DNA of 64,000 nucleotides from Halobacteriales archaeon YIM A00010 (GTDB lineage: Archaea > Halobacteriota > Halobacteria > Halobacteriales > Haloarculaceae). Made by a program: the position numbers and the translations under genes. The stretch spans positions 1,116,001 through 1,180,000 of the forward strand of contig JAKCFJ010000001.1 in the NCBI GenBank assembly GCA_025041175.1, read 5' to 3'. How positions within the stretch are numbered: the stretch's first letter is position 1; each line of letters starts with the position of its first letter. Below, one piece after another: positions 57,430 to 62,919 of this stretch. The notes below the pieces were generated by a model. The model did no database searches. It saw only the letters and a program-made list of their open reading frames with translations, and was not told the DNA's origin.

Positions 57430-58476
57430 ATGAAGGCTGTGCAGTTCACCGAGCACGGCGACAGGAGCGTTCTGTCCTACGAGGAACACCCCGATCCCGA
57501 AATCTCGGCCGACGAGGTGCTGGTCGATGTCAAAGCAGCCGCGTTGAACCACCTCGACATCCACACCCGTCGTGGACTGCCCGGCGTCGACCTCGCGATG
57601 CCCCACATTCCGGGGAGCGACGCGGCCGGCGTCGTCACCGAGACCGGATCGACCGTGACCCGATTTTCGGAGGGCGACCACGTCGCCGTCTCGGCGGGAC
57701 GCTCGTGTGGGACGTGTGAGTACTGCCGCCACGGTCAGGAGTCGACGTGTGAGTCGTTCCATCTGATCGGAGAGCACGTAACCGGCGTTCACGCCGAGCT
57801 CGCCGCCGTCCCAGCCGAAAACCTCATACCGGTTCCCGAAACGGTCGACTGGCCCACTGCCGGTTCGGCCGCGCTGGTCTTCCAGACCGCGTGGCGGATG
57901 CTCCACACCCAAGCCGAACTTTCGGCCGGCGAGCACGTCCTCGTTCACGGCGCTTCGGGCGGCGTCGGTCACGCAGCGGTCCAGATCGCGGACCACGCGG
58001 GCGCGGAGGTGTACGCGACGGCGAGCAGCGGGGCGAAACTCGATCACGCACGCGACTGCGGCGCGGACCATCCCATCAACTACGAAGAAACCTCGTTCGC
58101 CGACGAGATCTACGACCTGACCGACGGGCGGGGCGTCGACGTGGTCGTTGATCACGTCGGACCCGCAACGTGGGAGGACTCGCTGAAATCCCTCGCCAAA
58201 GGCGGGCGACTGGTCACCTGCGGTGCGACCACCGGTCCGAGCGCCGAGACGAACATCAACCGCGTCTTCTGGAACCAACTCCGAATCATCGGCTCGACCA
58301 TGGCGACACCGGGAGAGACCGACGACGTGCTATCGCTCGTCTGGGACGGAACGTTCGAACCGCACCTCCGGACGACGCTCCCGATGAGCGACATCGCCCG
58401 CGCCCACGAACGCCTCGAACAACGAGAGGGGTTCGGCAAGGTCGTCGTCGTTCCAGATAGTGAATATGACGGATAA
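57430..58476 (+). CDS. Zinc-binding medium-chain dehydrogenase
   Basis: The 348-residue protein has the MDR fold with the catalytic-zinc region HIPGSDAAGVVTETGS, a structural-zinc lobe with cysteines CGTCEYCRHGQESTC, and the NAD(P) motif VHGASGGVGHAAVQIADHAG. The conserved alcohol dehydrogenase Cys near residue 40 is replaced by LNHLDIH, so it may be a quinone-reductase-like or crotonyl-CoA-reductase-like member. The last codons overlap the start of the next small membrane gene. Confidence 0.9.
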   Translation: MKAVQFTEHGDRSVLSYEEHPDPEISADEVLVDVKAAALNHLDIHTRRGLPGVDLAMPHIPGSDAAGVVTETGSTVTRFSEGDHVAVSAGRSCGTCEYCRHGQESTCESFHLIGEHVTGVHAELAAVPAENLIPVPETVDWPTAGSAALVFQTAWRMLHTQAELSAGEHVLVHGASGGVGHAAVQIADHAGAEVYATASSGAKLDHARDCGADHPINYEETSFADEIYDLTDGRGVDVVVDHVGPATWEDSLKSLAKGGRLVTCGATTGPSAETNINRVFWNQLRIIGSTMATPGETDDVLSLVWDGTFEPHLRTTLPMSDIARAHERLEQREGFGKVVVVPDSEYDG

Positions 58477-58801
58477 CGACGACGGATACGTCCACGATCC
58501 CGAGTCGTTTCGGGAGCGAACGGACGCCGACCAGCCCGAGTCGCGGACGACGAAAGCGTATCTCAGCGGTCCCGACCGGAGTGATCCCTCCGACCGGGAG
58601 TTCGGCCGACGCGGCTGGCTCCTCGTTGGAACCCTGGCCGTCGCCTTCGTCCTCGTTCCTGCGACGATACTGTATCTCCCGCACGCAGAACCCGCTGCTG
58701 TCGGGCTGACGTTTCGGGACGCGTATCTCGTTCTCCCACTCGTTCCCGCGCTCGCTCTCGGCGCGGTGGCCGTGTGGACTGCGATCGGTGGATCACAATG
58801 A
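58466..58801 (+). CDS. Small two-helix membrane protein
   Basis: The 111-residue protein starts MTDNDDGYVHDPESFRERTD, has an acidic disordered N-terminal half (about 1-50), then two hydrophobic helices (about 52-73 and 85-108). It starts inside the end of the dehydrogenase gene (11 bases of overlap), so the two are translationally coupled. A membrane-associated partner of the dehydrogenase is possible but not shown. No known family is recognised. Confidence 0.65.
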   Translation: MTDNDDGYVHDPESFRERTDADQPESRTTKAYLSGPDRSDPSDREFGRRGWLLVGTLAVAFVLVPATILYLPHAEPAAVGLTFRDAYLVLPLVPALALGAVAVWTAIGGSQ

Positions 58802-58875
58802 CCGGACGCACGACCGAAGAAAAACCGGGGCAGGAGGGTTGTTCGAGTGATCTGCCCCGTCGAGACCAAACGTAG
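58798..58875 (+). CDS. 25-residue frame overlapping the membrane gene stop
   Basis: A 26-codon frame (MTGRTTEEKPGQEGCSSDLP start) begins in the stop codon of the membrane protein gene with an ATGA overlap. It also contains a GGGGCAG/CTGCCCC 7-bp hairpin at about 58829-58860. The overlap favours translation, but the peptide is unremarkable and the hairpin may simply be a terminator. Low confidence. Confidence 0.25.
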   Translation: MTGRTTEEKPGQEGCSSDLPRRDQT

Positions 58876-59099
58876 ATCGCAGACTGCCCGTCCGTCGTAC
58901 TACTATCGTACATCGTCTCGGGTGTTCAATCGATGGACAGTCTATTCGGTCGGTTTTCCTCGATCAGTAAAAACGCATCGAAATACACCCATAAATAATG
59001 AATTATTAACAATTATCTAGCGAATCGATCGCTCATTCACTGTGTGGTTCGAGACTCATCCCGCAACACACGAAAAAACGTGCGTTCGAACAATCGGTG
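58876..59099. other. Intergenic region between convergent genes
   Basis: No gene is seen in these 224 bases. An AT-rich patch (58990-59015) lies in the middle. The region precedes the stop codon of the first Asp-rich secreted microprotein gene. Confidence 0.35.
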
Positions 59100-59321
59100 C
59101 TACAGGAGGTCTAAGAGGTCCTTATCGTCGTACCCGTCATCGTCGCTACGATCGTCGTAGTCGACGACGACATTACCTCCCTTATTGTCGACATCTACGT
59201 CGTCGTTGTCGTCACCATCGGCGATCTTACAACTGTCCGCTGCAGCAGGCGCCGCGCCGGCCCCTGCGACCATGCCCAACAGCATGAGAGCGACCAACGC
59301 AACGTGAATTGCTCGTTTCAT
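59100..59321 (-). CDS. Secreted Asp-rich microprotein 1
   Basis: The 73-residue protein starts with a signal peptide (MKRAIHVALVALMLLGMVAG, Ala-rich cleavage zone near 26-28). It continues with an Asp/Asn-rich mature part containing NVVVDYDDRSDDDGYDD and ending LLDLL. The paralogue at 60382-60603 has the same length, signal peptide and layout. Forty-plus acidic residues in a mature part this small suggest cation (Ca/Mg) binding or a surface role; this is inference. Confidence 0.7.
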   Translation of the reverse strand: MKRAIHVALVALMLLGMVAGAGAAPAAADSCKIADGDDNDDVDVDNKGGNVVVDYDDRSDDDGYDDKDLLDLL

Positions 59322-59653
59322 GGGTAAGTTGACTGGAAACGGACCACCAGGACCGCTTTGCACGAATGGATCGGGTGGTGCTCGCCCAGCGAATATGCAT
59401 TCGGAGGTGTGTACAATAAATATTCTCCTAAGTAGTAAAAGTTTAAGAATTCACTGTAGCTATTGTATTATTGTGACACCACGACGCTTGTGAAGAACTA
59501 CCGCGTCGGAGAATGGTTGTTGCTTCAATTCGTATAGAATGGGTGATATTACCGAAATAAAACGCCACTCAATCCACATTATAATTGTATCAAATAAAAA
59601 TAGTAGGGAATAGTATGGAAAACGTTTAATCCGGAGACGAGGGGACGTGATGC
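59322..59653. other. AT-rich divergent intergenic region
   Basis: The 332 bases hold the promoters of the first Asp-rich gene and the DoxX gene. From about 59400 to 59640 the DNA is AT-rich. No other gene is supported. Confidence 0.4.
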
Positions 59654-60085
59654 ATGGGAACAAGTACGAAGTTCGGCACTCAAGGACCGGCATCGCTGAT
59701 CCTCATCAGGCTACTAGTCGGTGGGGTTTTCATCACAGAAGGCCTGCAAAAGCTCCTGTTTCCGGGGATACTCGGTGCAACGCGCTTTGCTGAGCTGGGC
59801 TTTCCCGTTCCGCGGGTCATCGCTACAGTCGTGGGCGCGGTCGAGATCGTTGCGGGGGGCGCCGTATTACTCGGCCTTGCGACGCGGTTGGCCGCGGTCT
59901 TTCTGTTGCTCATCGCGCTCGGCGCAATCATCACGACGAAGTTCCCGATCCTCGTCGGACAGGAAATCTGGGTGTTCCCGCTTCCGGAGACTGAACGCAA
60001 CGGCGTATGGGGGTTCCTTCACGCGTGGCGTGGTGATATCGCCATGCTGCTCGGGTCACTCTACTTACTTATTGCAATAGATTGA
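59654..60085 (+). CDS. DoxX family membrane protein
   Basis: The 143-residue protein has four hydrophobic helices. The DoxX core appears as ILIRLLVGGVFITEGLQKLL, FPGILGATRFAELGFPVP, IVAGGAVLLGLATRLAAVF and FLHAWRGDIAMLLGSLYLL. DoxX-like proteins are linked to thiosulfate:quinone oxidoreduction, but most are small membrane proteins of unknown use. It lies between the two Asp-rich microprotein genes, which are on the opposite strand. A surface-stress link is only positional. Confidence 0.85.
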   Translation: MGTSTKFGTQGPASLILIRLLVGGVFITEGLQKLLFPGILGATRFAELGFPVPRVIATVVGAVEIVAGGAVLLGLATRLAAVFLLLIALGAIITTKFPILVGQEIWVFPLPETERNGVWGFLHAWRGDIAMLLGSLYLLIAID

Positions 60086-60381
60086 TATTCTTCCCTCATG
60101 GATGAATGAACACGTATCCAACGCGTCTCCCGGGCGCAGTTCATCCGTGGTATCCGAGCCGCTGTGCGGATCGATCACAGCGTTCGGGAGGCGGATCGTC
60201 AGCACGATCACACCGACCAGCTCGGCCGCTTCTCGAACGTGTGTGAGACACAATCATAGCATATAATACGCTGCCCGAGTATCCTTCCAGTGGGTCGGTC
60301 GCAAACGGCCAGTACGGAATCAACCCTCGACGACGGCAAACGCAGGCGTCAACGCCGATAAAAACGATGACCTCCTACACC
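60086..60381. other. Intergenic region without a convincing gene
   Basis: Between the DoxX stop codon and the second Asp-rich gene stop there are 296 bases. A minus-strand 62-codon frame (60065-60253) has one hydrophobic run but overlaps the DoxX end and has no clear signals. I see no repeat here. Confidence 0.35.
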
Positions 60382-60603
60382 TTACAGGATATCCAGGCCG
60401 AGGTCTAGGACGTCGTTGTCTTCGCTGTCGTCGATGACGACGTTAGACGAATCGTCGATGTCGATGCCGTCGTTGTCGATACCGTTGTTGTCGTCGTCGT
60501 GGGTGACATCTGTACCACTCGCTGCAACGGGTGTCGCGCCGGCCCCCGCAATCATGCCCAACAGCATGAGAGCGGCCAACGCAACGTGGATTGCTCGTTT
60601 CAT
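60382..60603 (-). CDS. Secreted Asp-rich microprotein 2
   Basis: The 73-residue protein is a paralogue of the one at 59100-59321. The signal peptide is nearly identical (MKRAIHVALAALMLLGMIAG) and the mature part is Asp/Asn-rich (HDDDNNGIDNDGIDIDD, NVVIDDSEDND), ending LDLGLDIL. The 74-bp stretch covering the start and signal differs at 5 positions from the first copy (60535-60608 against 59253-59326), while the mature parts have diverged more, which indicates duplication followed by change in the acidic part. Confidence 0.7.
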   Translation of the reverse strand: MKRAIHVALAALMLLGMIAGAGATPVAASGTDVTHDDDNNGIDNDGIDIDDSSNVVIDDSEDNDVLDLGLDIL

Positions 60604-61297
60604 GGGTATCGTCTGGGACGGGACACCACGTTGCCGATTCTTCCGAACCTGTCGACGGATCCTGAATCGTTCGTAGTATCCTCCCAGTACAATCCTATTG
60701 AAACACATATACTATAAACTTTACTACTCAGACTGGACATAGACTATTACTGTACAGTTCTGCTATCTGTGTCTAGATCTGAATCGAACACCCTCCACAT
60801 CCACCGTTTTCTAGTTAATTCCCCAACAACTAACTAGTCGTATAAACAATACGTGCCCACATTACACCGTAGCACATACATCATAACTATTTATCACTAT
60901 ACGCAGTGAGATGGAATAGCCAGCGGCAACCACTGACCGGGAGGCGTACCGAGAGTTCGGGATGACCAACGATCAAATCCCCGTTAGATCCTCGCGAACG
61001 CCTTTGTACCCGCCCTCCATAGCAACGGTCGCCGGACCATGGCAAAGCAGCCCTGAATCCCCACGGCGGAGGAGTGTCCGCCGTTCACTTCCGGTGGGTT
61101 CATTGATCGACGTGACCCTTCCCTCTACGCCACCCTCCGTTCGACTAGTTGCTCGGTGATCGATCAGTTCCGAAGGACGGGACCGACCACCGACAGCGGA
61201 CTGGTGCGAGTGTGACACCACACGGCAACGCAATGGACTTGAACGGTAGTTCAAGATGGGTCGAAACGTTTGAGGGACGGGCCAGTCAGATGTGGAT
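60604..61297. other. 694-base intergenic region with an 8-bp-arm hairpin
   Basis: No gene is supported. The left part (60700-60910) is AT-rich and holds promoter-like DNA. The right part is GC-rich and contains ACGGCGGA (61063-61070) paired with TCCGCCGT (61077-61084), loop GGAGTG. I suspect degraded insertion-sequence DNA here but cannot name it. Confidence 0.4.
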
Positions 61298-61789
61298 ATG
61301 GACGTAGACGAAAAGGACATCGACATTTTGAAAACCATCGCGGACGCGGAAACGCGGAGTCCCGATCACATTTCAGAAGAGACGGGGATCCCGCTTTCGA
61401 CCGTGAACTACCGGTTAAAACAGCTTCGGGAGGCGGGCATCATCCGCAACGACCACTACGACATCGATCTCGAGGCCCTGGGCTTCGAGATCACGTTCGT
61501 GATCCAGATCATCGCTGATTACGAGGAGGACACCTACAAACCACTCGGGGAGAAGCTCAGCGGTATCGACGGCATCACTCACGTTTACTTCGCGGCGGGA
61601 GACACCGACTTCTTCGTGATCGCGCAGCTGACTGATCCCGGGATGGTCGAGGAGCTCATCACTACGCTCGAACGCCTCGATAGCGTCGAGCGGACGATCT
61701 CCACGTACACGATCAGCACGCTGCTCGACGGACACGAACCGCTCCAACAGATATCTCGAGAAACGATGCGCGACCGGCTCCTCGATTGA
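61298..61789 (+). CDS. Lrp/AsnC family transcriptional regulator
   Basis: The 163-residue protein has an N-terminal helix-turn-helix (IDILKTIADAETRSPDHISE, then GIPLSTVNYRLKQLREAG) and a C-terminal RAM-type effector domain (VIQIIADYEEDTYKPLGEKL, THVYFAAGDTDFFVIAQLTD). Lrp/AsnC proteins of haloarchaea sense amino acids or metabolites. ATG 61298 is chosen over GTG 61292. It lies upstream of an EamA transporter gene, which could be a target. Confidence 0.9.
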   Translation: MDVDEKDIDILKTIADAETRSPDHISEETGIPLSTVNYRLKQLREAGIIRNDHYDIDLEALGFEITFVIQIIADYEEDTYKPLGEKLSGIDGITHVYFAAGDTDFFVIAQLTDPGMVEELITTLERLDSVERTISTYTISTLLDGHEPLQQISRETMRDRLLD

Positions 61790-61876
61790 TATCGAATTTC
61801 CATACGATATAATTCGAATTCGTGATATAGGAGTCTAATCAATAGATATATAATACACTACAGTCTAATATCTCCT

Positions 61877-61951
61877 ATGACACGTACAGTCCTTTCGCTA
61901 CTCAGTATCGGCGGTGTGCGTTCCGTTCGCTGTCGGGAGCGTGGTCGATGA
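61877..61951 (+). CDS. 24-residue leader frame before the EamA gene
   Basis: ATG 61877 opens a 25-codon frame (MTRTVLSLLSIGGVRSVRCR start) that ends in a TGA overlapping the ATG of the EamA gene (ATGA). Such an overlap suggests translational coupling. The peptide is otherwise unremarkable, and its start lies downstream of the AT-rich TATATAATAC promoter-like DNA. It could also be an untranslated leader. Confidence 0.35.
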   Translation: MTRTVLSLLSIGGVRSVRCRERGR

Positions 61952-62919
61952 GCCGACGGCTGATCGGGGCGTTTTTGCTCCTCGGGACGCTATGGGGGAG
62001 CTCGTTCGTCGCGATCGATATCGGGCTAGGATATTTCCCACCGATCGAGTTCGCTGCGCTGCGGTATCTCATCGCGGGCGTCGTCGTGCTCGGCTACGCG
62101 GGGTACTCGACGCCGCGGTGGCGTCCTCAGACGCGCAGGGAGTGGCTGGTGGCAGCGGTCGCCGGGAGCTTTCTCATCGGTGGCCACCACGCGTTTCTCT
62201 ACCTCGGCCAACAACACGTCAGTGGAGCGGTCGCGGCCGTAATCGTCAGCCTTGGACCGGTGTTGACCGCGCTGTTTGCGGCCGGCGTGCTCGGTGATCG
62301 GGTGACGTCGCTGGATTTCGTCGGGTTCGCACTCGGCCTTCTGGGCGTCTTTTTCGTCGCCCAGCCGGGAGTGCCCGACGGCATCGGTCAGTCGTTAGTC
62401 GGGCGGTTTCTGGCGTTGGATCCGAGTGCGCTGTTGGTGGGCGACGGGATCGGGGTTGCGACGGTGTTTCTCGGTGCCGCCTGTTTCGCGCTCGGTGCGG
62501 TGTTGACCGAACCCATCGAGACCACGCTTCCGCCCCGGACGGTGCAAGCGTGGGCGATGCTCATCGGTTCAACGCTGCTGTTCGTCGCTGGCGTCGTTCG
62601 CGGGGAGTCGCTAGCGGCGATCCAGTGGACGCCGGTCGCGAGCCTGTCGCTCCTGTATCTCGGGGTCGTCACCGGTGCGGGCGCGTTTCTCCTGTATTTC
62701 GAACTGCTCGACCGGATCGGACCGACACAGATAAACCTCATCGGCTACCTCGAACCCGTTTCGGCCACGGTTCTCTCGTGGCTGGTGTTGGACGATCTGA
62801 TCGATCCGCTCACAGCGTGTGGCTTTCTCACGATCCTCGCCGGGTTCGTCTGTATCCAGCGGCGCTCGTTCGTCCCTGCCGTTGCGTCCCGGCTTCCCTC
62901 CATCGCTCGCCAGTGGTGA
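61948..62919 (+). CDS. DMT family (EamA) transporter
   Basis: The 323-residue protein has ten hydrophobic helices in two EamA repeats. The first contains LLLGTLWGSSFVAIDIGLGY and AAVIVSLGPVLTALFAAGVL; the second contains GAFLLYFELLDRIGPTQINL and YLEPVSATVLSWLVLDDLID. Such exporters carry amino acids, metabolites or drugs. Start ATG 61948 is immediately before MSRRLIGAFLLLGTLWG. The Lrp-type regulator lies upstream. The substrate is unknown. Confidence 0.9.
   Translation: MSRRLIGAFLLLGTLWGSSFVAIDIGLGYFPPIEFAALRYLIAGVVVLGYAGYSTPRWRPQTRREWLVAAVAGSFLIGGHHAFLYLGQQHVSGAVAAVIVSLGPVLTALFAAGVLGDRVTSLDFVGFALGLLGVFFVAQPGVPDGIGQSLVGRFLALDPSALLVGDGIGVATVFLGAACFALGAVLTEPIETTLPPRTVQAWAMLIGSTLLFVAGVVRGESLAAIQWTPVASLSLLYLGVVTGAGAFLLYFELLDRIGPTQINLIGYLEPVSATVLSWLVLDDLIDPLTACGFLTILAGFVCIQRRSFVPAVASRLPSIARQW

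Follow-up and report, generated by a model that had tools for sequence, protein, structure and literature searches.

The locus and its two microprotein genes

The window analyzed here is a stretch of 64,000 nucleotides from the genome of Halobacteriales archaeon YIM A00010 (G000; 5.97 Mb, seven contigs). At the locus under study two microprotein genes, A and B, enclose a gene for a DoxX-family membrane protein, and conserved genes anchor the arrangement on both sides:

57430..58476 (+): zinc-binding alcohol dehydrogenase, conserved left anchor of the locus
59100..59321 (-): microprotein A, 73 aa; predicted signal peptide at about residues 1-28; core DDVDVDNKGGNVVVDYDD; orthologue in G003
59654..60085 (+): DoxX-family membrane protein, between A and B, 143 aa; PF07681 match with E=1.6e-14 and 54.7 bits (cut-off 23.6)
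60382..60603 (-): microprotein B, 73 aa; predicted signal peptide at about residues 1-28; core DNDGIDIDDSSNVVIDDSEDND; tail VLDLGLDIL; paralogues and orthologues
61292..61789 (+): Lrp/AsnC-type regulator, conserved right anchor beside B

An earlier note on this DNA had described a duplicated pair of genes for secreted, Asp-rich proteins of 73 residues with near-identical signal peptides, separated by a DoxX gene on the opposite strand. All of this was recovered, secretion being predicted. Over roughly 70-74 bp running from TACCC-ATG into the signal region, A and B show 5 differences; downstream of this region their DNA sequences diverge, with gaps. The mature parts contain 15-18 Asp and at most one Glu and have a net charge of about -14 to -17. 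Their length is 52 aa with the automatic cut and about 45 aa with the likelier AxA cleavage. A has one Cys and B has none. Since the orthologues of A and B in genome G003 are gap-free and show many synonymous codon changes, and since further paralogues sit at conserved places, we conclude that A and B are real genes.

Searches of A and B against Pfam and NCBIfam gave nothing above the curated cut-offs, in agreement with the earlier statement that no such family has been described. The mature part also gave no Pfam match to an EF-hand or other curated Ca2+-binding profile, nor to a thrombospondin type-3 loop. AlphaFold returned no confident fold for B (pLDDT 57), with helices only at the signal and the C-terminal tail, and modeled the related T type, described below, as unstructured.

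The resemblance of the signals had been read as a recent duplication in which the signal is conserved and the acidic part varies. The recent date was not borne out: orthologues of both A and B occur at the same locus in G003, so the duplication is older than the split between G000 and G003. When the substitution patterns of signal and mature part were compared, the contrast was seen between A and B but was absent among orthologues, in which both parts are similarly conserved. Signal and mature identities of B orthologues were 89 vs 84% and 93 vs 89%. The mature DNA identity between the G000 and G003 orthologues was 72% for A and 84% for B, and in the trp-locus copies of these two genomes the signal (79%) was the less conserved part, with the mature part at 85%. 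The A signal of G003 is 92% identical to that of B of G000 and only 82% identical to that of A of G000. A hypervariable mature part was rejected because the mature parts of orthologues are about as conserved as their signals. On the same comparison of orthologues we rejected a recent duplication, and also gene conversion of the signal, of which there was no indication.

In five genomes (G000, G001, G003, G004 and G005) B is enclosed by the genes for the alcohol dehydrogenase and the AsnC-type regulator, and these genomes also have a second B copy, beside trpC/trpB of the trpCBA locus. At the alcohol dehydrogenase/AsnC locus, DoxX is present in G000 (between A and B), G003 (beside A) and G002 (beside an array of N-type members) and absent from G001, G004 and G005. 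As these three genomes have the locus without DoxX, it is not a fixed partner, and the notion of a stable partner was dropped.

A salactin-family actin homologue (PF25229) adjoins B in four genomes, intact in G003 and G005 and diverged in G001 and G004. These neighbours were located at L036:7021-8082, at L039:6557-7759, and near B in L037 and L038. The genomes of the genus carry 2-4 salactin copies each, and no trace of a salactin relic was found in the window.

A multi-copy family in one haloarchaeal genus

The A/B pair is part of a larger, previously undescribed, multi-copy family that occurs throughout the genus. G000 has about eight members: A, B, a 90% identical B copy that adjoins the trp genes, two B-like copies on replicon C4 and three T-type genes. 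The six other genomes of the genus, which include those of the published hypha and spore formers Halocatena pleomorpha (G005) and Actinarchaeum halophilum YIM 93972 (G001), gave 2-10 matches each, so that the family is present in all seven. Two of the seven, G002 and G006 (the latter listed with 9% contamination), have the same 3,915,224-base main contig C1 with identical match coordinates and are therefore probably one organism. Beyond the genus, 146 genomes of the taxonomic family and 391 of the class yielded weak matches only, nearly all in much longer ORFs. The haloarchaeal search for proteins combining this type of signal with an Asp-rich mature part, which the earlier note had put forward, thus succeeded in seven genomes and found no convincing member in about 400 others. 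As judged from these sequences, the family is confined to the clade that contains the known hypha- and spore-forming haloarchaea. Plasmid and phage collections gave no family match.

Subtypes A, B, T and N have the signal peptide in common and share, less strictly, the core D-x-[VI]-D-[VI]-[DA]-[DN]-[ST]-x-x-N, which is least clear in the N type. The core is DNDGIDIDDSSNVVIDDSEDND in B, DDVDVDNKGGNVVVDYDD in A and NDNDLVDVDDTLNNISTNVLGVQVDD in T, a type with a two-domain form (T1) and one-domain forms (T2, T3); the N type has the Asn-rich NNPVIVVDNENNNTN. A fifth, Cys-rich type, C, occupies the A position in Actinarchaeum. The profile of one subtype finds the others, as in the matches of the T profile (E=1.2e-7) and the N profile (E=6e-9) to a B gene. 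A comparison of the mature-part profiles of B and T aligned 11 columns with a probability of 5%; because this mature-only comparison is weak, the homology of the B and T mature parts rests on the core motif and the full-length profile matches.

Several members have features of their own. Four tandem Asn-rich members (NNPVIVVDNENNNTN...), repeat-like and possibly beta-prone, are found beside the DoxX gene in G002 (L041:7547-8909). The Cys-rich relative at the A position in A. halophilum and G004 (L037:9327-9710 and L038:9300-9689) has 14-17 Cys and a VDVDVD run, and is preceded by its own CUGC...GCAG leader hairpin. T-type pairs, in which a two-domain gene is followed by a one-domain gene (TEINSGETTVVNDNDLVDVDDTLNNISTNVLGVQVDD), occur at L046:7955-9034, L071:6849-7933 and L074:6105-7070. 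The two B-like copies on C4 (L044:7895-8128 and L045:7758-7991) are near-identical, lie about 395 kb apart and have a different upstream hairpin. Outside the family described here, a genome from another haloarchaeal family (G369; L079:1495-1905) encodes a secreted protein of 134 aa whose N/Q-rich repeats appear curlin-like by eye (QTNNNAQVGIAEANA, VDQNNTATVDQNAETGDNEA).

Predicted leader hairpin and promoter module

The upstream regions of family genes have the arms CTGGG and CCCAG in common. In the window the following elements precede A and B:

59333..59389 (-): predicted 5'-leader hairpin of A, CUGGG...CCAG, ending 11 nt before the AUG; weak on its own energy (z=-0.6)
59417..59422 (-): TATTTA, the TATA-like box of A; the hairpin starts 33 nt downstream
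60613..60687 (-): predicted 5'-terminal leader hairpin of B, CUGGG...CCCAG, 75 nt, ending 9 nt before the AUG
60713..60718 (-): TTTATA, the TATA box of B; the hairpin starts 31 nt downstream
60734..60742 (-): putative upstream activating site CTATGTCCA, with position and sequence common to other B and N genes

For 21 leading genes of types A, B, C and N, taken from five genomes and one small contig of a sixth, a single long hairpin of 42-84 nt was predicted, usually CUGGG...CCCAG and ending 9-19 nt before the AUG, with most z values between -1.7 and -4.6. The leader of B has a folding energy of -33.9 kcal/mol (z=-4.4; 0 of 200 shuffles as stable) and matches the covariance model. The A leader of the window is no more stable than its shuffles, and that of its G003 orthologue has z=-3.1. 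The distance from the first TATA base to the hairpin start was 31.9±1.3 nt despite the variation in hairpin length, which places the hairpin at the expected start of the transcript.

The inner arms, with the conserved five-base arms left out, paired with -16.8 kcal/mol in the cognate combination and with -10.9±0.8 kcal/mol after swapping, and none of 20,000 permutations was as good. In subsets from which near-identical orthologues, or the members picked by fold, were dropped, the counts were 0/20,000, 1/20,000 and, for B only, 6/20,000. Since inner arms pair far better with their own partner than with those of relatives, pairing is maintained by compensatory change.

A descriptor combining TATA box, hairpin, ATG and ORF retrieved 20 distinct ORFs from 519 kb around family genes, the background thus being their neighbours, and 19 of the 20 were family genes. 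With the covariance model, applied to six whole genomes with the best 150 candidates per genome scored, all 15 matches at E<0.02 were family genes; as these mostly belong to the training set or are close orthologues, the point of this result is the absence of other genes. The simple pattern CTGGG-N40-70-CCCAG-N6-18-ATG was discarded as sole regulon finder. It is unspecific alone (66 matches vs 35 for the control) and therefore useful only together with the TATA and pairing criteria. Rfam 15 contained no match to the leader at E<=1 for window positions 58000-62000.

Among the subtypes, A, B, C and N have a clear leader, as has T3 of G001/G004; in T1 of these two genomes the leader is recognized by its predicted fold. 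No clear CUGG/CCAG leader precedes the C4 copies or the majority of T genes in G000/G003. In the N tandem array the internal genes have no hairpin, as expected for an operon.

Promoters of B- and N-type genes contain the motif CTATRYCYA 14-17 nt before TTATA. The combined pattern CTATRYCYA-N14-17-TTATA occurred once in the window and in none of 100 shuffles. Both of its matches in the G000 genome belong to family genes, as do 8 of 13 in six genomes; a control pattern gave 4 matches. Because visual inspection of these promoters had revealed the motif in the first place, the evidence lies in its rarity elsewhere. A first candidate for a protein that would bind it is the AsnC-type regulator next to B. 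The signature proposed for the family, consisting of signal peptide, Asp/Asn-rich core, 5'-terminal hairpin and a TATA box at about 32 nt, was found, with the leader seen in A, B, C, N and some T members.

The predicted leaders resemble most leadered transcripts of Haloferax volcanii, as described in PMC3986360, in being 5'-UTRs without a Shine-Dalgarno sequence. They differ in carrying a family-specific hairpin at the transcript end, which had no match in the Rfam scan of the window and of which we found no description. In Haloferax 72% of the transcripts are leaderless, and highly expressed genes typically are (PMC4983044), so the presence of a leader alone is no argument for high expression.

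Proposed role and alternative explanations

Hyphae, aerial hyphae and spores have been described for this clade by Tang et al. 2023 (PMC10067837), whose main text lists among the gained genes of the clade secreted proteins with aspartate-rich repeats and suggests that these bind Ca2+. Such proteins and the present family agree in clade, secretion, Asp-richness, lineage-specificity and suggested Ca2+ binding. The paper specifies for them, in its main text, neither a family nor a sequence, and neither their place in the genome nor their regulation.

Starting from the family, its distribution and conserved loci, the pairing of the leaders and the promoter module, all of which were established by computation, we infer a transcription start, export, cation binding, a surface location, a developmental role and an action of the hairpin. 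The members would be co-regulated, disordered, cation-binding surface or matrix proteins of hypha- and spore-forming haloarchaea, equipped with a hairpin leader and promoter module, a reading that we consider credible though somewhat short of probable. Each gene would be transcribed from its own promoter, which in the B and N types would comprise the activator-like site CTATRYCYA, a spacing of 14-17 nt and the TATA box, and the mRNA would begin with the predicted hairpin that ends shortly before the AUG. The signal peptide would direct export and release a disordered, Asp/Asn-rich chain of 45-80 residues that holds the core motif and usually has a C-terminal tail that is short and hydrophobic. 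This chain would most likely reside at the cell surface or in the extracellular matrix, where its Asp clusters may bind divalent cations and its tail may associate with the S-layer or with itself, making the protein a coat or matrix component. The leader hairpin would most likely protect the 5' end of the transcript or tune translation, which would give all copies a joint response. For A and B themselves, Ca or Mg binding and coating of the surface, as the earlier note had suggested, remain plausible.

We favor the surface or matrix role with cation binding because the chains are very acidic and Asp-rich, have no confident fold, and agree with the features given for the clade in the main text of PMC10067837. 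The clade restriction of the family and the distinctive hairpin at the start of most of its genes make the members good candidates for co-regulated surface proteins. Asp-rich composition is common among haloarchaeal proteins, which counts against this reading, as do the missing match to a canonical EF-hand or thrombospondin type-3 loop, the A leader of the window that does no better than its shuffles, and the T and C4 genes without a clear leader.

A bolder version, in which a 5' RNA leader of a type unknown in archaea and the activator site co-ordinate a regulon of hyphal or spore-coat microproteins as the archaeal counterpart of the chaplin system, is in our view doubtful. Like the chaplins and rodlins of Streptomyces, which belong to aerial hyphae and spores, the microproteins are small, secreted and present in many copies with one- and two-domain forms (the T type here); the mature parts are acidic and disordered, whereas those of chaplins and rodlins are hydrophobic. 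Homology to chaplins was rejected, as no G000 protein scored over the PF03777 cut-off (best 14.9 bits vs 21, E=0.15, outside the family genes).

The Asp clusters and the strong negative charge of A and B would also suit general buffers of divalent cations or metals in the envelope, unconnected with differentiation, and the Cys-rich C type and a His-rich type, A_C2, suggest metal binding in some members. Such a function seems unlikely, for it leaves the restriction to a genus with morphogenetic haloarchaea unexplained while other haloarchaea meet the same ions.

The main alternative having a specific test is that the microproteins are precursors of signalling peptides, which would be exported, trimmed to C-terminal peptides and re-imported by an oligopeptide ABC transporter. 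According to the main text of PMC10067837, the peptide permease operon ORF_2669-2673 of YIM 93972 is tied to differentiation and aerial hyphae and complements a Streptomyces bldK mutant, and the peptide that it imports is unknown. The architecture of a small secreted precursor, the many copies and the conserved short tails (DLGLDIL, DLLDLL) are in keeping with this idea. However, orthologues conserve the mature part over its full length, beyond any short peptide, and the loci compared contain no peptidase or receptor gene as fixed neighbor. Furthermore, the imported pheromones known to us are unlike the very acidic mature chains. We regard signalling precursors as decidedly improbable.

The upstream inverted arms might instead act as DNA, for example as an operator or cruciform. 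Computation does not separate DNA pairing from RNA pairing, but the hairpin starts about at the expected transcription start and ends before the AUG, and its arms stay paired while their sequence is free to vary, unlike a protein operator. To a role as DNA we assign little probability.

That DoxX and both peptides form one module, for instance for maturation of a copper-binding RiPP of the HvfX type, is very improbable: DoxX adjoins members in three genomes, has distant similarity to HvfX and recalls HvfX systems in that a DoxX-type membrane protein stands beside a short secreted peptide, but its score of 34.4 bits is far below the HvfX cut-off of 80, for which reason the assignment was rejected, A and B have no Cys-rich core, the DoxX neighbor is inconstant and missing from the trp-locus copies as well, and no gene resembling a partner enzyme is named among those locus neighbors that were examined.

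The favored reading, that of co-regulated surface or matrix proteins, bears on the origin of branching hyphae, aerial filaments and spores in some haloarchaea. YIM 93972 is reportedly without a genetic system. A clade-restricted, multi-copy family of proteins predicted to be exported and placed under a common signature provides defined surface-protein candidates and a cis-element, both of which can be checked against published data sets for YIM 93972, the transcriptome GSE168067 and the proteome PXD023481, that contrast aerial with substrate hyphae. The leader would moreover be a rare example, among the mostly leaderless transcripts of haloarchaea, of a 5' hairpin that is specific to one gene family and maintained through compensatory change.
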